Assembly: GCA_001994995.1 (NCBI GenBank) | Contig: MDJM01000060.1 | Coordinates: 1 to 64,000, forward strand | Source: Candidatus Parepulonipiscium sp. PG-Nuni2H_MBin01 | Lineage (GTDB): Bacteria > Bacillota > Clostridia > Lachnospirales > Cellulosilyticaceae | Length of the DNA stretch: 64,000 nt | Direction of reading: 5' to 3' | Part shown: positions 43,699 to 59,063 of the stretch, piece by piece | How the letters are laid out: every line of letters begins with the position of its first letter | How positions within the stretch are numbered: the stretch's first letter is position 1 | Made by a program: the position numbers and the translations under genes | Notes under the pieces: model-generated | Databases searched by the model: none | The model's input: the letters and a program-made list of their open reading frames with translations, nothing else | Told to the model about the DNA's origin: nothing

Positions 43699-44904
43699 CT
43701 ATATACTTAGCGATAGCGTTAACATTGGTAACATCATAGCTATAACAACAAATGCAACAATTAAAGATAAAAGTAATGTTACCATAGGTTCTACCCATAC
43801 TAAAGCCTTTTCTATTTGGTGCTGATAACTCTTTTCAAAATATTCTCCCGTTCTAAGCAGTATCGTCCCTAACTGTCCTGTGTTCTCTCCTATTTCTATA
43901 ACTCCTACTAAATACGGTGATATTAGCTTGCAGTTATTTAGAGAATAACTTAAATACTTACCTTCCGAAATATTTTGTTTAGTAATATCTAATATGTTTT
44001 TTAACATATAACTTTCTGTACTGCTTTTTAATAATTCCACAGCTTCTGGCAATGCAACGCCAGATACTAACAGTACTCCTAATAAGTTAGCAATTTCTTT
44101 ATTTCGATATAGTATATATAAACGATTATATTTGTATATCTTAAGTTTAATAAATTCTATCATAACCTTGCCTGCTGGGATAGAGCTAATAACCATTAAG
44201 CTAACAATTGTACCGAATATTGCTATAATCATAGGAATTGTATGAGTTTGTAGTAGCGTTGAAATAAATATAAAGATTAAAGTTATAGTAGGTAACTTTG
44301 CGTTTTGGTATTCAAACGTATAAATTAACTGCGGAAAGATAAAATTAATAGCTATCATACCTGCTATTATTATCGTAGTTAATACAATGCCTGGATATAC
44401 CATAGCCTTTTTTAGCTTTTTAGTAGATTGGATTTCTAGTTCTAATTGCTTAATTATTATTTCTAGCGTTTGCTCTAATTTACCCGTGCACTCACCAGCT
44501 TTTATCGCTCCTATTACAAATGACGGAACTCCGCCAGTCTCCTCTAATGCGTGAGATAGCGTACTCCCTTTAACTACGTATGCAATTAGTTTATTAACCA
44601 ATTTAGTAGTCGCCCTAGAATAGCTACTACTTTTTATTAACACTAATGCATCATATAAACTAATTCCCGACTGCAACACAGCGAGTAGCTCTTGTAATAA
44701 AAATATTAACTCTTCTTTTGATATAACAGACGTACTAACCGCTTTAACTTCTTTATCTAATATAGTTTTCTTTCGTATATTTTGAACCAAAATATTTTTA
44801 GCTAACAACTGCTGTTTAGCCTCTTCCATAGAGAAGCTCTCTATTTCGCCTTTAACCTTTTCATTAGTAACAATTTTAGTAGCAGTATAAATGTATCTTG
44901 TCAT
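43699..44904 (-). CDS. pilC: Type II secretion/type IV pilus inner-membrane protein (PilC/GspF)
   Basis: A 401-residue platform protein of type IV pilus or competence machinery. Two GspF domains are visible (about residues 60-185, LLQELLAVLQSGISLYDALVLIKSS; about 265-390, IANLLGVLLVSGVALPEAVELLKSS), with about three membrane spans. A short N-terminal helix-rich region (YIYTATKIVTNEKVKG) is typical of PilC. The start overlaps the pilB stop by four bases, so the two are co-translated. No pilin, prepilin peptidase or other assembly gene lies in the window, so the rest of the apparatus must be elsewhere, or this is a remnant pair. Confidence 0.9.
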   Translation of the reverse strand: MTRYIYTATKIVTNEKVKGEIESFSMEEAKQQLLAKNILVQNIRKKTILDKEVKAVSTSVISKEELIFLLQELLAVLQSGISLYDALVLIKSSSYSRATTKLVNKLIAYVVKGSTLSHALEETGGVPSFVIGAIKAGECTGKLEQTLEIIIKQLELEIQSTKKLKKAMVYPGIVLTTIIIAGMIAINFIFPQLIYTFEYQNAKLPTITLIFIFISTLLQTHTIPMIIAIFGTIVSLMVISSIPAGKVMIEFIKLKIYKYNRLYILYRNKEIANLLGVLLVSGVALPEAVELLKSSTESYMLKNILDITKQNISEGKYLSYSLNNCKLISPYLVGVIEIGENTGQLGTILLRTGEYFEKSYQHQIEKALVWVEPMVTLLLSLIVAFVVIAMMLPMLTLSLSI

Positions 44905-46448
44905 ATATCTACCTTCTCACTAATATGCTCTAAATTACCAAGCACTCTATACACCTCTTCATACGATGTTATTCCACTGCTAACTAACTTCTGAGCCTGC
45001 TGCTTAAGCGTTATAAGACCATTGTCAGTAGCAACCTTATGCATATTATCATACGAAGCACCCTTTAGATGTATATGTGGTATTAAAATTTCAAATATCC
45101 CAATACGCCCTTTATATCCTGCACCTGCACATTTATCACAACCAGCCCCATTGCAACTTATACATAACTTTCTTAACAACCGCTGCGAAATTACCCCCTT
45201 AACAGTTTCCTTAATCATCACCTTATCAACACCCATATCAGACAATCTAAATAAAGCCCCTACACTATTTTCAGTATGCAAAGTTGTCCATATACTATGT
45301 CCAGTAAGCGCAGCTCGTGTAGCTATATCCGCTGTAACTTTATCTCTCATCTCTCCAATCATTAGTATATCAATATCCTGACGCAGCGCAGCCCTAAGCG
45401 AGTTTTCAAAATCTAATCCTTGCTTCTCATTCACTGCCACTTGTGTTATCCCATCCACTAACGTTTCCACAGGGTCTTCTATAGTCACAATGTTAACGTC
45501 AGAATTTTTAAGTACGTTAAGAACGCTAACTAATGTAGTAGACTTTCCGCTACCAGTTGGCCCTGTAACTATAACCATCCCTTCCTTTAAGTTAAGCAAA
45601 TACTGAATAAGCCTAAAATGTTCTTTAGCCATACCTAACTCTTCTAAACTAATATTTGTATCTTCGCTAGACCTAAGGCGGATAACTATTTTTTCACCAT
45701 GCACATTTGGCATAGTGCTAACTCGTAAATCATATTTTTTCTCTTCGTTTTTAAATGCAAAATACCCATCTTGAGGTATCTTCCTTTCAGTAATATCCAT
45801 TTTGGCAAAGATTTTTACGCAGTTAATTAACTCTAAACAGTTTGGCAGCTCGCTAATAATTTTTAATTTGCCATCCACTCTAAACCTAATTACAACTTTA
45901 GAGCTGCGCGGCTCAATATGAATATCTGAAGCTTGTGCATAAATAGCCCTAACAATTATACTTCTAATAGTGGCTTTCATATGCCCTTCTGATTCCTCTA
46001 AAGTCAGCCCTTCTTTTTCACTAAACTCCTCATTATTATATTGTTCCTCTAATATAATCGCATTTAAATTTGCTCTAATCCAACACTTTAACCCTACTTT
46101 ACATATAACTTTGCGCGCTGTTATTAAACGCAGCAGCTCCACCTCATGTAACATAAATGGGTCTGCCATCACTATTTCTAACGTATCCTCAGTCATATTA
46201 ATAGGCAATATAAGGCTATTAACACATAATATTTTCGCCTCATTAGATAGAACGATTGGATTTATATTAGTAGATATATATGGCTGTACGCAATAATACT
46301 GCTGCTTTAATTTTAACATAGCGCTTTGTTCTAATATGTGATTTTCTAATAAAAAATCTTCCAAGTCTACTTTAGGAATTTCCGTTAATTGTGTGGATAA
46401 ATTACTTTTTACTATATAATCTTGTACGTAACTTTCAAAGCTACTCAT
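44901..46448 (-). CDS. pilB: Type II secretion/type IV pilus assembly ATPase (PilB/GspE)
   Basis: A 515-residue hexameric ATPase powering pilin or pseudopilin assembly. The N-terminal MshEN-like domain (about residues 1-130) is followed by the catalytic half with Walker A GPTGSGKST, the Asp box TIEDPVET, the Walker B region ILMIGEMRDKVTADIA, the His box GHSIWTTLHTEN, and a zinc-binding CISC...CDKC tetracysteine. GYKGRIGIFEIL completes the GspE signature. I chose ATG 46448, with AGGGGGT upstream; upstream in-frame codons overlap the pepF terminator. It forms a two-gene operon with pilC. Confidence 0.93.
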   Translation of the reverse strand: MSSFESYVQDYIVKSNLSTQLTEIPKVDLEDFLLENHILEQSAMLKLKQQYYCVQPYISTNINPIVLSNEAKILCVNSLILPINMTEDTLEIVMADPFMLHEVELLRLITARKVICKVGLKCWIRANLNAIILEEQYNNEEFSEKEGLTLEESEGHMKATIRSIIVRAIYAQASDIHIEPRSSKVVIRFRVDGKLKIISELPNCLELINCVKIFAKMDITERKIPQDGYFAFKNEEKKYDLRVSTMPNVHGEKIVIRLRSSEDTNISLEELGMAKEHFRLIQYLLNLKEGMVIVTGPTGSGKSTTLVSVLNVLKNSDVNIVTIEDPVETLVDGITQVAVNEKQGLDFENSLRAALRQDIDILMIGEMRDKVTADIATRAALTGHSIWTTLHTENSVGALFRLSDMGVDKVMIKETVKGVISQRLLRKLCISCNGAGCDKCAGAGYKGRIGIFEILIPHIHLKGASYDNMHKVATDNGLITLKQQAQKLVSSGITSYEEVYRVLGNLEHISEKVDI

Positions 46449-46517
46449 AGTATACCCCCTACCTCTAAAATATATTAAAGTATAACCGTAACTTTTAGGT
46501 TTATTCATCATATGCAC

Positions 46518-46549
46518 AAAAAAAAAGGTGACACTGGCCACCTTTTTTT
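46518..46549 (-). terminator. Terminator after pepF
   Basis: On the minus strand AAGGTG and CACCTT flank an eight-base loop and are followed by ten T. It separates pepF from the pilB leader. Confidence 0.85.
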
Positions 46550-48544: not shown

Positions 48545-49705
48545 ATGAAAAACAAAAACCCACAAATAACATTTTTAGCAATCATGACTGGTCTAGTATT
48601 TTTAGGCTATATTATCAGTTTAGTTACACGTAACCTTACGTATGCAGTTGCAATTCCGTTAGTAATAGGAATTACCATTATGGCTATTTCGCTACGGATT
48701 AGACGTGCGTCTTATTTTTCTTATCGCGCTAATGTAGCGTTTGATGCTAAGCAGTATGACATAGCATTAGCTTATTATAAAAAAGCTACCGAAGTGCCAG
48801 ACTGCCCGCCTCTTATTAAAGTTATATATGCTTACAGATTACTTACTTTAGGTAAGCTAGCTGAGGCAAAAAATATTATGGAACAAATTGAGGTAAGCGC
48901 TTTAGATGAAAATGCTAAATTTAATTATGATGCTACTGCTGCGCTTATTACTTGGAAAGATGGTAATTTAAAAAAGGCTATTTTAGCTTATGAGAAATTG
49001 CTAAATACTAGAGAGAGTGAATTAGTTTATGAGACTTTAGGTTTCCTTTTAGTATGTAATGAAGAATATGATAAGGCTATTGAGTTATGTAATAAAGCAC
49101 ATAAGTTATATCCAAATAGCCTTGTAATTAGGGATAACCTTGCTACAGCTTATTTTTATACTTATGAAGATAAGAAGGCGCGTAAGTTGTATAAGGAACT
49201 TATAGACCAATACGTTAATTTTCCAGAACCGTATTATTACTATGGAAGAATTGCTTATGATGATGAGAAGTATAAGTTAGCTTTAAAGTATCTTAATATA
49301 GCGCTTGAAAAGCCTGCATCTTATTTATCTCATTTACAATCTGAGTTTATACAAGAGCTAATTTATGAGGTTGAAGAGGCTCTAGCTAATTTTACGAAAC
49401 AAAATGAAACACAAAATGAAATCGAAGTTGTAGATATTGCACGTGTTATCAGTAACGATGATGATTTTGATAATGACGATGATGAGCATGACGACGAGTT
49501 TGATAGTGACGAGGACGAGCATGACGACGATGATTTTGACGATGACGATTTTGATAATGACGATGATTTTGACGACGATGATTTTGACGACGATGATTTT
49601 GATGATGACAAAGACTTTGATGACGATGATTTTGATGACGACGATTTTGATGATGAAGACTTTGATGATAAACAGCCTAAGTCTGTGCTTAAAAAAGTAA
49701 AATAA
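48545..49705 (+). CDS. Membrane-anchored TPR protein with Asp/Phe-rich tail
   Basis: A 386-residue protein. Two N-terminal membrane spans (about residues 8-27 and 32-51) end in an RIRR basic stop. A tetratricopeptide array follows (about 60-290; for example [32 protein letters not shown] and [15 protein letters not shown]). The last 85 or so residues are an extreme acidic tail of repeated [10 protein letters not shown]-type units, with hardly any positive charge until the final [10 protein letters not shown]-like end. The tail is expected to be disordered and on the cytoplasmic side with the TPRs. I chose ATG 48545, with GAGAG upstream; an ATG at 48539 is the alternative. It lies 17 bases before serS. 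Function unknown. Confidence 0.82.
49455..49675 (+). repeat. GAY-rich repeats encoding the acidic tail
   Basis: About 220 bases built from GAC/GAT codons with regularly spaced TTT, such as GACGATGATTTTGACGACGATGATTTT in several near-copies. The repeat encodes the Asp/Phe tail of the TPR protein. Near-identical units suggest recent slippage or unequal recombination, so length variation between strains is likely. Confidence 0.8.
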
Positions 49706-49722
49706 CATATGAGGTGGATAAA

Positions 49723-50994
49723 ATGATAGATATAAAAATATTACGTGAAGATATGCCAAGAGTACAAAAAGGTTTAGCTAGCAGAAAAAGCAATGTGGAC
49801 CTTGATGAGTTTATTTCTCTTGACAATAAGTATAGGGAGCTATTACAAAAGGTTGAAGTGTTAAAAAGTGAGCAAAATGTTGTATCTAAACAAGTGCCTT
49901 TACTAAAAAAAGCAGGCGAAGATGTTACTGATATTCTTGCTAAGATGAAACTGCTATCTGAGCAAATTAAGGAATTAGACCAAGAAGTACGTGAAATTAA
50001 TGATAAGTTACAAGCGTTTTTATTAACATTACCAAATTTACCAAATGACGCGGTGGCAATTGGTGCTAGTGATGACGATAATGTGGAGCTTAGAAAAGTA
50101 GGAGAAGTACCACAATTTGATTTTGAAGTTAAACCTCACTGGGATTTAGGAGAATCATTAGATATTTTAGATTTTGAAAAAGCTAGTAAAGTTACTGGCT
50201 CTAGATTTACTTTTTATAAAGGCCAAGGTGCTAGGTTAGAAAGAGCGCTTATCAATTTTATGCTTAATATGCACATTGATGAGCATGGCTACACAGAGGT
50301 GCTTCCTCCTCTTATGGTAAATCGCAGCAGTATGTATGGCACAGGGCAGTTACCAAAATTTGAAGAGGATGCTTTTAAAGTACAAGACACTGACTACTTT
50401 TTAGTCCCTACTGCTGAAGTACCTGTAACTAATATGTATAGAGAGCAAATATTAACAGCAACACAGCTACCTATTAAGCACTGCGCATACTCTGCTTGTT
50501 TTAGAGCAGAGGCTGGTTCTGCCGGGCGTGACACAAGAGGGATTATACGCCAGCATCAATTTAATAAGGTGGAATTAGTAAAATTCACTACGCCAGAACA
50601 ATCGTATGAAGAGCTTGAAAAGCTAACTAATGACGCTGAAAATATACTAAAGGCTCTTAAGCTGCCATATAGAGTAGTTAGATTATGCACAGGTGATTTA
50701 GGATTTAGCTCTGCTATGACGTATGATATAGAAGTGTGGATGCCTAGTTATAATAGATACGTTGAAATTTCTAGCTGTTCTAACTTTGAGGACTTCCAAG
50801 CGCGAAGAGCTAATATTAAGTATAAGAACAATATAAAAGATAAAGCACAATTTGTTCATACGCTAAATGGAAGTGGGCTAGCGATTGGTCGTACCGTAGC
50901 AGCCATATTAGAAAATTATCAACAAGAAGATGGAACAATAATAATTCCAGAAGTACTAATACCATATATGGGCGGCGCATCTGTAATAGCGTAA
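49723..50994 (+). CDS. serS: Seryl-tRNA synthetase
   Basis: A class II aminoacyl-tRNA synthetase charging tRNA-Ser; 423 residues. The N-terminal long antiparallel coiled coil (about residues 25-100, rich in Leu, Lys and Glu) binds the tRNA. The catalytic domain has motif 2 in [25 protein letters not shown] (arginine-rich loop), [16 protein letters not shown], and motif 3 [19 protein letters not shown] chose ATG 49723, preceded by GAGGTGG; the GTG at 49714 is inside that site. It is downstream of the TPR gene in one operon and has no T-box leader. A composite terminator follows. Confidence 0.97.
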
Positions 50995-51002
50995 AATAAA
51001 AA

Positions 51003-51083
51003 CCCCTAGTTTTGATATGACCCCAGTAAGTTAGACCAAAAAATCTAACTATTGGAGGCCGATACATCGCTAGGGGCTTTTTT
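51003..51083. terminator. serS terminator with a long insert in its loop
   Basis: CCCCTAG (51003-51009) pairs with CTAGGGG (51070-51076), followed by six T. The arms are 60 bases apart rather than a few. The loop holds its own hairpin, AGTTAGA (51029-51035) with TCTAACT (51044-51050). The arms also work on the minus strand for the gene at 51085. The loop sequence resembles an insertion-sequence end, listed separately. Confidence 0.7.
51016..51067. mobile_element. Possible remnant of an IS3-family element end
   Basis: TATGACCCCAGTAAGTTAGACC, then A-rich sequence, TCTAACTATTGGAGGCC. This pattern (TGACCCC, an AGTTAGA-TCTAACT hairpin, then a GGAGG ribosome-binding-like site) is reminiscent of the left ends of IS3/IS150-family elements. 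No transposase coding sequence is present. If correct, this is a roughly 50-base scar in the serS terminator loop. The identification is from memory of such ends and is tentative. Confidence 0.35.
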
Positions 51084-51583: not shown

Positions 51584-51603
51584 ACACAGAGGTGAATAAG
51601 TTT

Positions 51604-53265
51604 ATGTGGAGCGAGTACATTATTGAAGATTTTAGCAACATAAATGGATTAAAAGAAAAATACCCAGACATTATTTTTCGCAAAGTCAGTGAGCAAATCT
51701 ACGTTGTAGAAGTACCTACCACAGCAAAGGTTGAAATGCTTGAATTAGCAGAGCACCTGCGATACGTTCAAACGTCATTTTTATACGGCCTAAATATTGA
51801 AGAAGCATTACAAGACTCTGGCATATCAGTTTTTCATGACTATCCGTATGGCGAATTACGAGGCAAAGGAGTTATACTAGGCTTTGTTGATACAGGGATA
51901 GAATATACTAGCAATTTTTTTAGATTTGAAGACGGTAGCACCAGAATTGTTAGTATTTGGGACCAGACTATAGAAGATGGTAAGCCACCTAAAGAGGATA
52001 GCTTTGGCTCTGAGTACACTAGAGAAGAAATTAACGAAGCTTTAAAATCTGATAATCCGCTTTCCATCGTGCCTTCCACTGATTACAATGGCCATGGCAC
52101 CTATATTGCTGGCGTTGCTGGAGGTTCGGATAGATTAGGCCGCTCAGGCTATGTGGGCGCTGCTCCAGATGCGGAATTTATTGTAGTGAAAATGCGCGAA
52201 GCATCTCAAAGCCTTAAAGATTATTATTTGGTGAAACCAGGAGTCGTTGCCTATCCTGATGGCTCTATACTACTTGGGATAAATTACATTATAGAAAAGG
52301 CTGCGCAGTTAAATAAACCTTTAGTGCTATGCATTGCCGTTGGAAATAATTATGGAGGGCATGATGGTACTAACGTTATTGAAAGATACTTAGGCCATTT
52401 AACACTAATGCCAAAAGTTATAGTAGTAGCTGCTGCTGGCAATGAAGGTAATGCAGGACACCACTATAAAAACACGGTAGAGCAAAACGAAAAGCGTACA
52501 GTAGAACTAAATGTAGCAGCTAACGAAAATGGTTTTTTGTTACATATATGGGGGACGCAAATAGATAAACTGTCAGTTGGACTGCGTTCACCAATAGGGC
52601 AAATTATAGAGCGAGTCCCTTTAAAGCCATATAAAGCAGAGAAATTTAATTTTTCTTTACAAAGCAGCAAAATTATAATTGATTATAAATACCCCGAATC
52701 TAACACTGGTGGCGAGTCTATTGTAATTGCATTTCAAGAACCTATTGCAGGAATTTGGCAAATTGATATTTACGGCGATGACATTACTAATGGCACTTTC
52801 CATATGTGGCTGCCTAGAGCTGGCTTTGTTGAAAATAACACTAGATTTTCTGAACCCAATCTAGAGACTACAGTTTGTGTACCAGCAACAGCAGATTTTG
52901 TTATAGTTGTTGGCGGTTATGACGTTGTGGATAAAAGCCTATACGCTGCTTCTGGCCGAGGACCCACTCGCTTTGGCGATATTAAGCCAGATATTATAGC
53001 GCCTAGCATTAATATTGATGGTCCAGGGCTTAACAATACTCTCACTTCTGCTACTGGCACAAGCGTTGGTGCGGCTATGACTGCTGGAGCAGGCGCTCTA
53101 CTTCTCGAGTGGGCTATTCTTAACGAAGGTTTACCTACTTTAAATACTCGTATCGCCCGAATGGTTTTAGCGCGTGGCGCTCAGCGACAACCACCTGGTG
53201 GTCATCCTACTAACATTGAAGGTTTTGGCATGCTAGATTTGCAAAATGCTTTATTGCTTATTTAA
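51604..53265 (+). CDS. Csp-type subtilisin-like protease 1 (germination protease family)
   Basis: A 553-residue S8 serine protease of the clostridial Csp group, without signal peptide, as expected for forespore-made proteins. The N-terminal prodomain-like region (about residues 1-75) precedes a complete triad: Asp96 (GFVDTGIEY), His164 (NGHGTYIAG) and Ser487 (TGTSVGAAM). The oxyanion Asn is in AAAGNEGN. A beta-sandwich insert (about 300-430, ending in DIYGDDITNGTFHMW) matches the jelly-roll that Csp proteases carry between the Asn and Ser parts. I chose ATG 51604, nine bases after AGAGGTG. It is first of four tandem paralogues. Csp proteases activate the cortex hydrolase pro-SleC; SleC is not in the window. 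Confidence 0.92.
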   Translation: MWSEYIIEDFSNINGLKEKYPDIIFRKVSEQIYVVEVPTTAKVEMLELAEHLRYVQTSFLYGLNIEEALQDSGISVFHDYPYGELRGKGVILGFVDTGIEYTSNFFRFEDGSTRIVSIWDQTIEDGKPPKEDSFGSEYTREEINEALKSDNPLSIVPSTDYNGHGTYIAGVAGGSDRLGRSGYVGAAPDAEFIVVKMREASQSLKDYYLVKPGVVAYPDGSILLGINYIIEKAAQLNKPLVLCIAVGNNYGGHDGTNVIERYLGHLTLMPKVIVVAAAGNEGNAGHHYKNTVEQNEKRTVELNVAANENGFLLHIWGTQIDKLSVGLRSPIGQIIERVPLKPYKAEKFNFSLQSSKIIIDYKYPESNTGGESIVIAFQEPIAGIWQIDIYGDDITNGTFHMWLPRAGFVENNTRFSEPNLETTVCVPATADFVIVVGGYDVVDKSLYAASGRGPTRFGDIKPDIIAPSINIDGPGLNNTLTSATGTSVGAAMTAGAGALLLEWAILNEGLPTLNTRIARMVLARGAQRQPPGGHPTNIEGFGMLDLQNALLLI

Positions 53266-53349
53266 TTAGTGTAACCGATTGCTTATTTAAATTAATGTAA
53301 TCAAATTGCTATTAATGTAACCGATTGCTTATTTAAATTAGTGTAACCG
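53253..53349 (+). repeat. Four tandem copies of the csp1 3' end
   Basis: The unit ATTGCTTATTTAA(A)TTARTGTAACCG occurs at 53253-53277, 53278-53304, 53305-53323 (shortened) and 53324-53349. The first copy contains the last codons of csp1 (LLI) and its TAA stop, so the tail of the gene was copied into the gap before csp2. Copies differ by a few bases and small deletions. Confidence 0.85.
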
Positions 53350-53361
53350 AAAGGAGTCTTT

Positions 53362-55518
53362 ATGTTTTATAGTAACGAATTCCAACCCCACTGCTTACAG
53401 CTGGATGAAAATATATATTTTGACTATGATGAACTGTACTGCGATAACATGTTAACTTTATCACATTTAGAAAACTTTGTTATGCCAGCTGATATACTAT
53501 GTTACGTCTTAGCTGGTGACATTTTAACTACTAACGCTAGCTCTATACAGCTATTTTTATATCCATCGCAATTGTCAGTTCGGCAGTACCTTAGCATAGT
53601 TATAGATATTTTAAACACTGCTATTTCCACCAATAAACGCCCAGTTTTATATCATGCGTTTGAGCGAGCAACTTCACCTGCTCGCTGCGTGCTAGATAAA
53701 CTTATTAATAGCTGGTTTGATAAAGTTGGCGGCGTTTTAATCTATTATACTAATGACACTAACATTGCTAAGTATTACCGAGTTTCCCAAGCTAATTTTG
53801 AGCCATACATTCAACAAGCCATTTTTACTAACGATTTACCTAACAACGCTTTTCTAAAACTAAGCAACTGCTTCCCTCTTTGTCACAAAACTATACGTCG
53901 CACTTACCGTAATGCTACCGATAAACTTTTCCGAAACAACTCTCTTTATAATGATATTTTCTATACACAAATCCCTAATGACGAATATCTAGTTTTATCT
54001 CTAAATTTATTTGCTCCTACAAACGCGCAGTATTATAAAGAATTTGGCATTGAATATATTAACCTTTTAAACTGCGAGCATCTAATTAGAGCTAAAAAAT
54101 CTGTGCTAGACTCAGCTAGCCAATATATTAAATCTTATGTAGCTCCTAATTATTACCCTATGATTGTAACTAGACCTAAATTTACGTTCACTAACATAAA
54201 CCATAACAACACTTTTTGTAATAAAACTGATGTGATTGATGATGGCGACGGCGTAATTATTGGCCTGATGGACACTGAAGATATTGACTTATCGTATGGT
54301 AATGTTGAAATTATAGATAGTTATAGTTCTAGTCGCTCTAATGAGATAAGTACTGCTACTGCTATGATGTTATTATGTAACTCAACTAACTTGCCAAAAG
54401 TTAAATATGCATTCGTTAAATTGCCTAGCGCATCTAAGGCTTTGCAACGTATATATGCTGGGGAGACAACGGATAGCGCGGTTCTTGTAGATGATATAAT
54501 TATCGCTATTACTAAGCTAATTGAATATGCTAACGAACAGCAAAAACCTATAGTATTATGTATACAATACGGCTCTAATTTAAGCAGCCATGATGGCACA
54601 GGAAAATTAGAACGAATTATCGCAAAGTATCAATCACAACCCGGAGTTACTATTATTACTACGGTTGGTGAAGAAGGCGATAAAAAGCACCATGAGCGCC
54701 TTTTAATTGAACATTCAGCTCGTAGCACAATTAAAGTTGGCCCTAATGCTAATGTCGTTTGCGTCTTATGGAAGGCGTATCCTGGTGGTATGGAAGCGTT
54801 TCTTGTTAATTCTAAAACTAACGAAAAATATAGCTTAAATTACTCCACTATTCATAAAACTAGCACTGGCACAATTTATACGCGTGGTCGCCGAGTTAGC
54901 GATAATAATGGGTGCCTTAATATCGTTTTTAGAATGGAAAATCTAGAAGCTGGCGATTGGATTATTGAATTTGACCTTGAGTATCATAATAATGGAGTTG
55001 TGGATATTTGGCTTTCTGATAAGCAGTTAAACAATGGTACTTATTTTACTAAAGGCGATGCTTTTATTACTATCCCATCTCTTGGTAACATTAAAGATAC
55101 GATTTGCGTTGGCGCTTATGATAACGCAACGTTAACTATAATGAAAAGTGCTGGCCGCGGCTACACTCGCAATGGTCGCGTTTCGCCAACTTGTGTAGTG
55201 CATTCTGCTAATATTGATGTGTTTCTTAATGATGGCACTCCTATTAGAATAAATGGCAATCTTACAGCACTAGCTTTACTAGCTGGCGATGCAGCAGGTG
55301 TTTATAGCATTTTAATTAAGAAAAATTTTAGCCATTTACCTAACACCCAAACTATGTCTTACTGGCTTACTGCAAATCTACAACAATTAGATACGCTTAC
55401 ATATCCTAATCCAATGCAAGGATATGGAGTTTACGTTACAGAAAATTTAAAACAGTGGTTATTACTTAACAGTGTTATTAATTCATCAGAAGCTAATAGT
55501 GTTTTTTGTACGTATTAA
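53362..55518 (+). CDS. Csp-type subtilase pseudoprotease
   Basis: A 718-residue relative of its three neighbours that cannot be a normal serine protease. The Asp is kept (Asp304, GLMDTED), but the His motif reads SNEISTATA instead of NGHGTxxAG (His to Glu328). The oxyanion Asn motif reads GEEG instead of GNEG, and the Ser motif reads GNLTALALLAG instead of GTSxxAAxxAG (Ser to Leu634). The segment between Asp and the former His is also much shortened. The N-terminal region is about 200 residues longer than in the neighbours. The jelly-roll-like insert and C-terminal fold (SAGRGYTRNGRVSPTC) are retained. GGAG precedes ATG 53362. In C. difficile, catalytically dead CspA and CspC act in germinant sensing; a similar role is inferred. 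Confidence 0.85.
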   Translation: MFYSNEFQPHCLQLDENIYFDYDELYCDNMLTLSHLENFVMPADILCYVLAGDILTTNASSIQLFLYPSQLSVRQYLSIVIDILNTAISTNKRPVLYHAFERATSPARCVLDKLINSWFDKVGGVLIYYTNDTNIAKYYRVSQANFEPYIQQAIFTNDLPNNAFLKLSNCFPLCHKTIRRTYRNATDKLFRNNSLYNDIFYTQIPNDEYLVLSLNLFAPTNAQYYKEFGIEYINLLNCEHLIRAKKSVLDSASQYIKSYVAPNYYPMIVTRPKFTFTNINHNNTFCNKTDVIDDGDGVIIGLMDTEDIDLSYGNVEIIDSYSSSRSNEISTATAMMLLCNSTNLPKVKYAFVKLPSASKALQRIYAGETTDSAVLVDDIIIAITKLIEYANEQQKPIVLCIQYGSNLSSHDGTGKLERIIAKYQSQPGVTIITTVGEEGDKKHHERLLIEHSARSTIKVGPNANVVCVLWKAYPGGMEAFLVNSKTNEKYSLNYSTIHKTSTGTIYTRGRRVSDNNGCLNIVFRMENLEAGDWIIEFDLEYHNNGVVDIWLSDKQLNNGTYFTKGDAFITIPSLGNIKDTICVGAYDNATLTIMKSAGRGYTRNGRVSPTCVVHSANIDVFLNDGTPIRINGNLTALALLAGDAAGVYSILIKKNFSHLPNTQTMSYWLTANLQQLDTLTYPNPMQGYGVYVTENLKQWLLLNSVINSSEANSVFCTY

Positions 55519-55529
55519 GGAGGCTTAAA

Positions 55530-57287
55530 ATGCTTAGTCCACAACTTCAATTAATGTTAAACTATCCTTTATCTCAGTTGCCCGAATCGTTTTTTCAACT
55601 TACTGGCATAACAGACCCTGATATATGGGATGTTTTAGTTATATATAATGACAGCTTAGAAGTACCAACACCAGATGATTTAGTGATATACCAAGTTACT
55701 ATACTAGGCAAAGGTTTTGCTTTACTTACCTTACCAAAAAATCAGATACAACAACTGGATAAGATTCCTACTATCGAATACATTATGTTACCAGAAGTGA
55801 TGCAATATACGTTGGATAAAAAGGTATCTGAAGTTTGCGGGTCTAATATCGCATCACCAAGCTCTGGTTACGGTGTAACTGGAAAAGGCATTTATTTTGC
55901 AAGCATTGATTCAGGAATTGATTATACTCACCCTGATTTTATAAATCCTGATGGAACAACTAGAATTGCTTATTTATGGGACCAAACTATAGAAGGTACA
56001 CCGCCAGAAGGTTTTTTTCAAGGCGCAGAATTTAGTGCTGCTGACATTAACCTAGCTTTAAAAAATCCAGCCTTAGTACCAAGTGTAGATGAGCTAGGAC
56101 ACGGCACAGCGCTATGTGGCATTGCAGTTGGAAACGGCCGCGCTGATTTTAGAGAGCGCTATAAAGGCGTTGCACCAGAAGCGGAGCTTATTGTTGTTAA
56201 AGTGGGTCAACAAGGAGATAACGAAATAAAAAGCTCTACACGCGGACCCCGCAATACTGAAATTATGATGGCGTTAAAATATGTAGTGGATAAGGCGATT
56301 TTACACAATAAGCCTATTAGCATTTTAATTGGATTTGGTATTAACGAAGGAGGGCATAACGGAAATAGTTCGCTAGAAAAATATATCGATTCACTATCCA
56401 CAAGTTGGCGAGTTAATGTAGTTGTTAGCGCTGGTAATCAGGCTAATAAAGATAGTCATGTTTCTGGAAAACTAACTCCTAGGGAAGTTAAAAAAATCAG
56501 TGTATTTATAGACGATGGGCAACCTTACTATTTTGCAACGTTGTGGAAAAGTTTTATAGACGACTTTGGCATAGTTATACAATCGCCAAGCGGAGAGCGT
56601 ACAGATTTAATGGTTCGCGAACAAGTTAATACTAACACATTACTTAAGGATACTCTTGTATCACTAAATTTCTCGCAAGCCTCGCCTGTATCTGATGGCG
56701 AACAAATTATTATATTCCTTGATAACATAATAGGAGAACCTATAGAAGATGGAAACTGGACTATTGAACTTACTGGCATTGAGATTTTAGATGGAAGTTA
56801 TGACATTTGGGGAGAGTCGCTTGAACAAGACGTTCGTAGCATTAGATTTAACGAGCCTACAAAAGATAAAACTATTACTATACCAGCGACTTCTGATTAT
56901 GCTACAAGTGTTGCTGCTTGTATGAATAACGGCTTACTTATAGCTCCATTCTCAGGCCGTGGCTACACCCGTTCTGGCAAAATTAAGCCTGATATTTCTG
57001 CCCCAGGGGTTAACGTTATTAGTGCTAGTATAAATAAGGAGGTTATGTATCAAGCCTTTACAGGAAGTAGCGCGGCGGCAGCATTTGTTGCTGGTGGCTA
57101 TTTACTATTGTTAGAGTATGGGATTAACCAAGTTGGCAACCAATACCTTTTTGGCGAAGACTTAAAAGCGTATATTATTAGAACCGCAAAAAGGCAACGG
57201 TCTATTAGTTACCCAAATCAAGAATGGGGTTATGGTGAGCTATGTATAAAATCTGCATTATTAGAACTTAGTAGGCTATATAATTAA
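55530..57287 (+). CDS. Csp-type subtilisin-like protease 3
   Basis: A 585-residue S8 protease with prodomain-like N-terminus (about residues 1-105, ending IPTIEYIMLPEVMQY) and intact triad: Asp127 (SIDSGIDYTH), His191 (LGHGTALCG) and Ser514 (TGSSAAAAFVAG). The Ser motif has Ser in place of the usual Thr before the nucleophile. The oxyanion Asn lies in VSAGNQAN. A jelly-roll insert ends in LTGIEILDGSYDIWG. I chose ATG 55530, directly after AAGGAGG; the frame upstream lies in csp2. It begins 11 bases after the pseudoprotease stop. No signal peptide. Likely a germination protease working on pro-SleC or a paralogue. Confidence 0.92.
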   Translation: MLSPQLQLMLNYPLSQLPESFFQLTGITDPDIWDVLVIYNDSLEVPTPDDLVIYQVTILGKGFALLTLPKNQIQQLDKIPTIEYIMLPEVMQYTLDKKVSEVCGSNIASPSSGYGVTGKGIYFASIDSGIDYTHPDFINPDGTTRIAYLWDQTIEGTPPEGFFQGAEFSAADINLALKNPALVPSVDELGHGTALCGIAVGNGRADFRERYKGVAPEAELIVVKVGQQGDNEIKSSTRGPRNTEIMMALKYVVDKAILHNKPISILIGFGINEGGHNGNSSLEKYIDSLSTSWRVNVVVSAGNQANKDSHVSGKLTPREVKKISVFIDDGQPYYFATLWKSFIDDFGIVIQSPSGERTDLMVREQVNTNTLLKDTLVSLNFSQASPVSDGEQIIIFLDNIIGEPIEDGNWTIELTGIEILDGSYDIWGESLEQDVRSIRFNEPTKDKTITIPATSDYATSVAACMNNGLLIAPFSGRGYTRSGKIKPDISAPGVNVISASINKEVMYQAFTGSSAAAAFVAGGYLLLLEYGINQVGNQYLFGEDLKAYIIRTAKRQRSISYPNQEWGYGELCIKSALLELSRLYN

Positions 57288-57314
57288 AGAACTATTATTT
57301 AAGGAAGGTGAAAA

Positions 57315-59063
57315 ATGAAAACAGATGCTGCTTTACAAATAATAACATCTCTAAGCGCATCAGAAGAAGAAGTTGCCGCGCAATATCTTAGCAACTACGG
57401 CTTTGAAGCTGAAGGCAGACTTGATATTATCGTTAAGTATAATGGCGACATTGATAGAGTTGCAAGGGAACAATCCGCTATTGCTCAAATTATAAGCACC
57501 AAATTTGCGGTGCTATCAGTGCCAAGACAAAATGTAAGCGCGCTTAGTAACTACACAGAAATAGAATATATGGAAACTCCAAAACTGCTGACGTATAATC
57601 TTAACAAAAGCATGACTGGCTCTTGTATTAAAACCGTTCAAAACAACCGGCCATATAATTTAACAGGAAAAGGAGTAATTCTTGGCATAATAGACTCGGG
57701 AATTCAATACGCCCACCGCGACTTTAGAAACTTAGATGGCACAACTAGAATTATATCTATTTGGGACCAAGGCATTGACGGCGCTGCGCCTTATGGATTT
57801 AAAATAGGAACCGAATATACAAGGGCGCAGATTAATGAAGCTTTAACTATGCCTAATGCTGCTGGTAGACTATCGATTGTACCTAGCGTAGATACAATTG
57901 GGCATGGTACACATGTCGCCGGAATTGCTGGCGGAAACGGCAATGCATCAAACGGACAATATATTGGAGCTGCGCCAGAGGCAGAATTTATCATTGTAAA
58001 GCTAGGCAAAGGCGGTACTAATGGCACATTCGTTAGAAACGTAGAAATAATGTTAGCCATTAAATACGTGGTGGAAAAAGCGCGCGAGTTAGGAATGCCA
58101 GTCGCAATAAACCTTAGCAACGGTATGAATGAAGGCCCTCATGACGGGCAATCTATTATAGAACAATATGTAGATGAGGCGGCGCAGCTGTGGAAAACTA
58201 ATATTGTAGTTGCTACAGGAAATGAGGCGGCTAACCAAACGCATACGCAAGGAGAAGTGTATCAAGGTAGCGTAAGCTCCTTTTCATTCCAAGTAGCGCC
58301 TAACCAATATAGTTATTCGCTATCAGTTTGGAAAGCGTTTATAGATACATTTGAATTTGAAATAGTAAGCCCCGCTGGAACTAGAACACCTAAAATTGCT
58401 TATTCACAAAAAGCTAGAACTTTTATATTAGATAAAACGAGAATATACGTAACGTTCGTAGGCCCCTCACCGCTAAATGGCGACGAAGAATTTGCACTAT
58501 ATTTAAGCGGACTTAATAGCGCAGCTATAACAGATGGAGCATGGAGTATAAATATATATGGAAAAGACGTTGTAAATGGAGAATATTATGTATGGGGACC
58601 AACTAGAGAGCTTGCTGGCGATGATACATTTATGTTAGAGCCAGTTCGATTTACCACGCTAACAACGCCATCAACAGCACGCAATGCCATATCGGTTGGC
58701 GCATACAATAGCATTACAAACCAAATAGCCCCATTCTCAGGCGTAGGTTACTCAAGAAACTCAGCAACAGTAAAACCCGATTTGGTGGCACCTGGAGTAG
58801 ATATAACAGCGACAAGCATAACAGGAGGGTATATAAGATACAGCGGAACAAGTATGGCAACGCCACATGTAACAGGAGCAGTTGCGCTTATGATGCAGTG
58901 GGGAATAGTACAGCATAATCAGCCGTTTTTATATGGAGAGTTTTTAAAAACTTACTTATTAAAAGGAACTAACAGAAACAATATAGAGGTACCAAACCCA
59001 GAATGGGGATACGGAAGGTTGTGCGTAAAAACATCATTAGACTTGCTAATTAGATTATTTTAA
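57315..59063 (+). CDS. Csp-type subtilisin-like protease 4
   Basis: A 582-residue S8 protease, the most canonical of the four: Asp127 (GIIDSGIQYAH), His197 (IGHGTHVAG), Ser513 (SGTSMATPHVTGA) and oxyanion Asn in VATGNEAAN. The prodomain-like N-terminus ends TEIEYMETPKLLTYN, where Csp proteins are processed. The jelly-roll insert ends in INIYGKDVVNGEYYVWG. AAGGAAGG precedes ATG 57315, 27 bases after gene 3. The active site resembles true subtilisins, so it is the best candidate for the main processing enzyme (CspB-like). A hairpin without a T-run follows at 59061-59090. Confidence 0.93.
   Translation: MKTDAALQIITSLSASEEEVAAQYLSNYGFEAEGRLDIIVKYNGDIDRVAREQSAIAQIISTKFAVLSVPRQNVSALSNYTEIEYMETPKLLTYNLNKSMTGSCIKTVQNNRPYNLTGKGVILGIIDSGIQYAHRDFRNLDGTTRIISIWDQGIDGAAPYGFKIGTEYTRAQINEALTMPNAAGRLSIVPSVDTIGHGTHVAGIAGGNGNASNGQYIGAAPEAEFIIVKLGKGGTNGTFVRNVEIMLAIKYVVEKARELGMPVAINLSNGMNEGPHDGQSIIEQYVDEAAQLWKTNIVVATGNEAANQTHTQGEVYQGSVSSFSFQVAPNQYSYSLSVWKAFIDTFEFEIVSPAGTRTPKIAYSQKARTFILDKTRIYVTFVGPSPLNGDEEFALYLSGLNSAAITDGAWSINIYGKDVVNGEYYVWGPTRELAGDDTFMLEPVRFTTLTTPSTARNAISVGAYNSITNQIAPFSGVGYSRNSATVKPDLVAPGVDITATSITGGYIRYSGTSMATPHVTGAVALMMQWGIVQHNQPFLYGEFLKTYLLKGTNRNNIEVPNPEWGYGRLCVKTSLDLLIRLF

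Follow-up and report, generated by a model that had tools for sequence, protein, structure and literature searches.

A variable, always acidic C-terminal tail on a conserved membrane TPR protein of Candidatus Epulonipiscium and its relatives

Why should a membrane protein encoded next to a seryl-tRNA synthetase gene end in a long run of aspartate with regularly spaced phenylalanine, and does this run matter to the cell? The locus lies in a 64,000-nucleotide stretch of Candidatus Parepulonipiscium sp. PG-Nuni2H_MBin01 (GenBank assembly GCA_001994995.1, contig MDJM01000060.1, positions 1 to 64,000), called the window below. Its features are collected in Table 1. The reading that we favour, with a probability of about one half, is that an old membrane TPR adaptor carries a tail which is lineage-specific, fast-evolving, polyanionic and disordered, and of which charge and disorder have been kept and the sequence has not.

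Table 1. Coordinates of the tailed TPR gene, its parts and the following gene in the window.
Feature	Position	Strand	Details and basis
CDS, 2-TM + TPR + acidic-tail protein	48545..49705	+	386 aa and stop
Two transmembrane helices (residues 6-52), then basic RIRR	48560..48700	+	hydropathy; AlphaFold H6-28, H31-52
Folded part: TPR helices (residues 54-255) and long C-terminal helix 266-307	48704..49465	+	Pfam; AlphaFold; Foldseek
Asp/Phe tail, residues 305-375; DDDDF from a degenerate 15-bp repeat	49457..49669	+	repeats; pLDDT
Basic C-terminal tip, last 11 residues (376-386)	49670..49702	+	sequence
serS, seryl-tRNA synthetase	49723..50994	+	TIGR00414, E=2.7e-173; 17-bp gap after TPR CDS

The membrane-anchored core and its Asp/Phe tail

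The N-termini of the orthologues match a start at ATG 48545 and not at the upstream in-frame ATG 48539. Pfam found TPR repeats in the encoded protein, with TPR_2 (E=5.3e-14; 51.6 bits, cut-off 27), TPR_14 (45.5 bits, cut-off 23.5) and TPR_12 (39.5 bits, cut-off 30.1) all above their curated cut-offs. The antiparallel helix-pair superhelix typical of the TPR superfamily was present in the AlphaFold model (helices H54-H255), which Foldseek matched to TPR superhelices with a best E of 3.0e-7. These results place the protein in the TPR superfamily, and searches of the TPR families and of the fold for a narrower family name returned generic TPR matches only. The protein resembles bacterial TPR adaptors (MamA, YrrB and others) in the sequence and fold of the superhelix, but its two N-terminal transmembrane helices and its acidic tail lie outside the matched stretch. 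Identity with the MamA magnetosome protein was rejected, the NCBIfam model NF040959 scoring 30.4 bits against a cut-off of 200.

Hydropathy analysis showed two membrane segments at about residues 6-29 and 30-53. The RIRR that follows them suggests, by the positive-inside rule, that both the N- and the C-terminus lie in the cytoplasm, and the folded part is likewise predicted to be on the cytoplasmic side. In the AlphaFold model (mean pLDDT 81.7; 21-sequence alignment) the 2-TM and TPR fold was confident to about residue 307, with block pLDDT mostly 88-98 up to residue 290. The TPR core is near neutral, with a net charge of −2. Disorder was predicted for residues 308-386, where pLDDT was below 50 and block means were 38-46 from residue 311.

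The tail proper (residues 305-386, 82 residues) contains 49 Asp (29 GAT and 20 GAC codons), 5 Glu and 11 Phe, all encoded by TTT. The last 60 amino acids have a net charge per residue of −0.53, the next lowest value among 38 long ORFs of the window being −0.13. The preliminary description of an acidic, repeat-encoded tail on a membrane TPR protein is thus borne out by the Pfam matches and codon counts, and AlphaFold predicts the tail to be disordered. Two of its details need correction. The DNA repeats, described as near-identical, are present as 15- and 48-bp arrays inside 49466-49669 (Tandem Repeats Finder), but their units are degenerate and differ chiefly by GAT/GAC; and the Asp-with-Phe pattern holds for residues 305-375 but not to the end of the protein, which is basic. 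The GAYGAYGAYTTYGAYGAY pattern had six matches in the 2.7-Mb source genome (88 contigs), all at this locus, and the control had none. From one Phe to the next the distance is 5 or 6 residues in eight of ten cases, a regularity equalled by 1 in 100,000 shuffles and not due to chance.

Orthologues and their tails

Our search with a profile of the core identified an orthologue in 7 of 24 family genomes and in 3 of 9 genera. The carriers are the window genome (genus g1), five genomes of the Epulopiscium genus (a separate genus, g8) and Niameybacter. Labelled carriers are Epulopiscium sp. Nuni2H_MBin003 (G020), SCG-C07WGA-EpuloA2 (G014), AS2M-Bin001 (G011), the Ca. Epulonipiscium viviparus morphotype B draft (G017) and Niameybacter massiliensis (G003). 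Because the flanks of the locus in the remaining carrier, G007, are 99.1% identical to those of G017 over 8,013 bp (66 mismatches, 3 gaps), we take G007 to be E. viviparus or a very near relative, judging from sequence. None of 22 pattern matches was confirmed as a viral relative.

All seven orthologues carry an acidic C-terminal extension, and its sequence is mostly dissimilar between species, the conserved core notwithstanding. The repeat unit is DDDDF in the window protein, ADTDADAHAHAT in E. viviparus (about 50 copies of 36 bp), PIEEISDA/PIEEIADA in Nuni2H and EIEEDIDEIEEQMEQ in Niameybacter; the tails of EpuloA2 (short) and AS2M (156 aa) have no repeats. As read, tail lengths range from 34 to 156 aa, with an E. 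viviparus array of about 600 aa. The net charges of the tails are −51 in the window protein, −14 in the frame-broken G007, −17 in G020, −42 in G017 (cut by the contig end), −11 in G014, −19 in G003 and −30 in G011. These values are from a set of eight proteins cut by position; the six tails cut by hand (one residue trimmed), from which the aromatic counts below are taken, have slightly different starts.

Two other readings of the tail, which take up the earlier suggestions of metal binding and phase separation, can be weighed against this diversity. The first is that it binds or buffers divalent cations (Ca2+/Mg2+) at the membrane, to which the dense Asp of the window protein and the Asp/His of E. 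viviparus might be suited. No metal-site spacing is common to the tails, however, others of which use Glu, Ile, Pro and Ser, and the tail is predicted to be cytoplasmic; with nothing in the analysis to favour divalent-metal binding, we consider this role quite unlikely. The second is that the periodic Phe residues act as stickers of a multivalent segment that drives condensate formation. Their spacing in the window tail would fit such a segment, but the Phe period is missing in all other orthologues, and the aromatic residues counted in five other tails numbered 1, 1, 1, 0 and 6. In addition, very high charge density opposes self-association unless a basic partner is present. Phase separation through Phe is therefore very doubtful.

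Outside the family the tail is absent. Clostridium tarantellae has a close orthologue that ends directly after the core. At the order level 35 genomes were searched, 14 matched, and the 13 that yielded loci were used; their homologues (13/13) have no acidic end, the charge of the last 40 residues being between −0.12 and +0.03. These Lachnospirales proteins are similar to the tailed ones in their hydrophobic N-terminal part, TPR repeats and related C-terminal segment, as well as in length (265-305 aa), but differ in having no acidic tail. In the tree, which was rooted at the midpoint, the C. tarantellae protein forms the sister branch of the seven tailed ones (100/99 support), and the tail-less order-level homologues fall outside (100/100). 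Absence from C. tarantellae and from all 13 order-level homologues, together with acidity in 7/7 family members, thus marks the tail as a lineage-specific addition, which is not clearly functionless. Most simply, the family would have gained the acidic extension once and rebuilt it repeatedly thereafter. The preliminary description had held that tail-less orthologues would mark the tail as a recent expansion without function: such orthologues do exist outside the family, but within it every orthologue has a tail.

Selection on charge or neutral repeat expansion

The main alternative, which we regard as possible, is neutral repeat expansion: the disordered C-terminus would be dispensable, its repeats would grow and shrink freely, and its acidity would descend from an acidic stub and have no function. 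The tail-less proteins of C. tarantellae and the order are in line with it, and so is the wide range of tail lengths. An acidic stub could indeed seed acidic repeats without selection. On the other hand, the repeat-less tails of EpuloA2 and AS2M are still acidic, and at least four repeat units of unrelated sequence are acidic as well. Among 61 closed control ORFs at the six relatives' loci (the orthologue and frame-broken array fragments excluded, near-duplicate genes of the two E. viviparus assemblies included), the lowest charge of the last 40 residues was −0.175 per residue and the median −0.025. Five of the seven tails lie well beyond this range, the exceptions being AS2M (−0.17) and the frame-broken G007 (−0.10).

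The repeat units themselves gave opposite signals in two species. In the window tail, seven of the eleven Phe-ended units (the five-codon ones, which are not independent of one another) showed 9 synonymous and 2 nonsynonymous changes from the consensus, where a synonymous share of 0.11-0.27 was expected (P 1e-7 to 2e-4). This excess could be explained by GAT/GAC codon slippage without selection. The same test on 19 units of E. viviparus gave 6 synonymous and 49 nonsynonymous changes (P 0.95-1.0); only units whose anchors lie exactly 36 bp apart and whose bases are all unambiguous were used (10 from contig C54 and 9 from C77), and the anchor forces agreement of their first codons. No constraint at the residue level is seen there, which favours neutral expansion, and the residue-level sequence of the E. 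viviparus tail appears to be free.

The E. viviparus array also bears on this point through its reading frame. In G007 it comprises 49.9 copies of the 36-bp unit over 1.8 kb (L021:5152-6959). In G017, 10.8 copies run to the end of contig C54 (L023:9906-10295), and the other end of the array is in frame on contig C77. Anchor spacings that are not a multiple of 3 numbered 17 of 40 in G007 and 0 of 21 in G017; the intact frame of the latter, draft, array argues against neutral expansion. Because G017 comes from nearly the same organism, we read the frame breaks of G007 as a probable error of assembly or sequencing within the repeat, and a genuine pseudogene was rejected on the same count. When the alignment of the two assemblies was extended into the tail (8,450 bp), it had 109 mismatches and 12 gaps, of which about 43 mismatches and 9 gaps fell in the last 437 bp or so, showing that the tail changes faster than its flanks.

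Beyond the hypervariable part, E. viviparus and AS2M have in common a peptide some 100 residues long at the C-terminus (46% identity, E=3.9e-17); a search of four other genomes, among them the window genome, did not find it. Conservation of such a peptide in two species is a further point against neutral expansion. It contains a PIEVVQHGP region (L021:4768-5166, L026:6582-7940, L054), and the peptide of this region is a possible short binding motif. An 81-bp tandem repeat of six copies, mostly intergenic, was also seen in the AS2M genome (L026:12058-12548). Taking both sides together, selection on net charge and disorder seems somewhat more likely than neutrality.

Gene neighbourhood and possible action of the tail

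Analysis of the gap between the TPR gene and serS revealed no terminator-like site, and no RNA element was found there at Rfam gathering thresholds. A promoter scan gave 12 sites against 13.3 expected. The two genes are probably co-transcribed in the window genome. The short gap without a terminator-like site would fit a serS operon that couples the protein functionally to seryl-tRNA synthetase. But no serS-like match lies beside the orthologue at any of the six relatives' loci, both sides being readable in four. The linkage to serS remarked on earlier is therefore confined to the window genome, and a serS operon function, whose adjacency is kept in no relative, was rejected as most improbable. 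Recognised from their first residues, the neighbours at several Epulopiscium loci are presumably ribosomal-protein-like, obg-like and glycosyltransferase-like, those in Nuni2H presumably proline-biosynthesis-like, and those in Niameybacter, we assume, other genes.

Several other features of the window were noticed by eye. Just downstream of serS, four consecutive ORFs (51592-59063) resemble subtilisin-type (S8) proteases or their relatives. Adjacent genes on the minus strand (43699-46541) resemble PilC/GspF and GspE/PilB components of a type IV pilus or secretion system, here in a Gram-positive lineage. At 51000-51080, CCCCTAG...CTAGGGG surrounds a loop with TGACCCCAGTAAGTTAGAC, a loop motif that occurs once in the genome; the arrangement is suggestive of the end of an insertion sequence set within a terminator.

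The closest physical match to the tail, by analogy, appears to be the RNA polymerase delta subunit (RpoE) of Bacillus subtilis, whose acidic C-terminal region (residues 91-173) is described as having a net charge of −47 and being able to displace nucleic acids (PMC7749165). The disordered, acidic window tail, with 82 residues and a net charge of about −48, is nearly the same in length and charge as that described there. That both proteins end in some 80 disordered acidic residues is a resemblance and not a sign of membership. The two proteins differ in that delta has an N-terminal HARE-HTH domain (PF05066), which is absent from the window protein, a membrane TPR protein. With no HARE-HTH among its Pfam matches, the window protein was ruled out as a delta subunit. 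HARE-HTH was not found in the window genome or the other six tail-bearing genomes; it occurs in 6 of 24 family genomes, all of genus g3, and together with the TPR orthologue in 0 of 24. This non-overlap is uninformative and carries no weight, because all delta matches are in one genus.

HMGB1 likewise ends in a disordered tail with runs of acidic residues that can act electrostatically, and D/E repeats in DNA-binding proteins are described as acting by electrostatic autoinhibition (PMC10250230). The basic DNA-binding domains of HMGB1 can be held by its tail, whereas the TPR core of the window protein is near neutral. Under an autoinhibition view the target of the tail would therefore have to be a partner rather than its own core. 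Two points count against the favoured reading: no conserved gene neighbour that might hint at a partner was found at the relatives' loci, and the near-neutral core offers the tail no obvious basic partner within the protein.

We propose that an older core of two transmembrane helices and TPR repeats (about 280 aa), anchored in the membrane and facing the cytoplasm, acts as a TPR adaptor, onto which the lineage holding Ca. Epulonipiscium and Niameybacter would have grafted a strongly acidic, disordered C-terminal extension. Short DNA units duplicated locally in tandem would have rebuilt this tail repeatedly, so that nearly every species now has a sequence, length and repeat unit of its own; the disorder and the strongly negative net charge would have persisted through the rebuilding, possibly under selection on charge. 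At the membrane the tail may form a polyanionic bristle, an electrostatic shield or tether for the TPR domain, which would repel nucleic acids and anionic lipids and briefly hold basic proteins in the manner of the delta tail, and the TPR domain may bind a partner. In the E. viviparus/AS2M branch the tail may double as a long linker that bears the conserved C-terminal peptide. A more specific version is that of a membrane-anchored polyanion, its charge held by selection and its sequence remade in each species, which works like a delta tail along the inner membrane face and displaces nucleic acids or nucleic-acid-bound proteins; this version seems unlikely.

A narrow literature search (Epulopiscium/Epulonipiscium and Asp-rich proteins) returned nothing of use and was too narrow to call the family undescribed; the passages seen of PMC13215605 and PMC8245194 contain nothing on such proteins. 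The observation is real, ordinary in kind and modest in interest. What is new is that a conserved core is joined to a tail which is always acidic and yet ever different, in a lineage of giant gut bacteria and in relatives of that lineage. If the tail is neutral, it is a clear case of repeat slippage making striking low-complexity tails that mislead annotation. If its charge is truly selected, these proteins are a natural experiment in the evolution of disordered regions, with one core and unrelated repeat units in close relatives, and would allow a test of whether net charge alone is why such tails persist. The relatives with rebuilt acidic tails include giant, highly polyploid gut symbionts.
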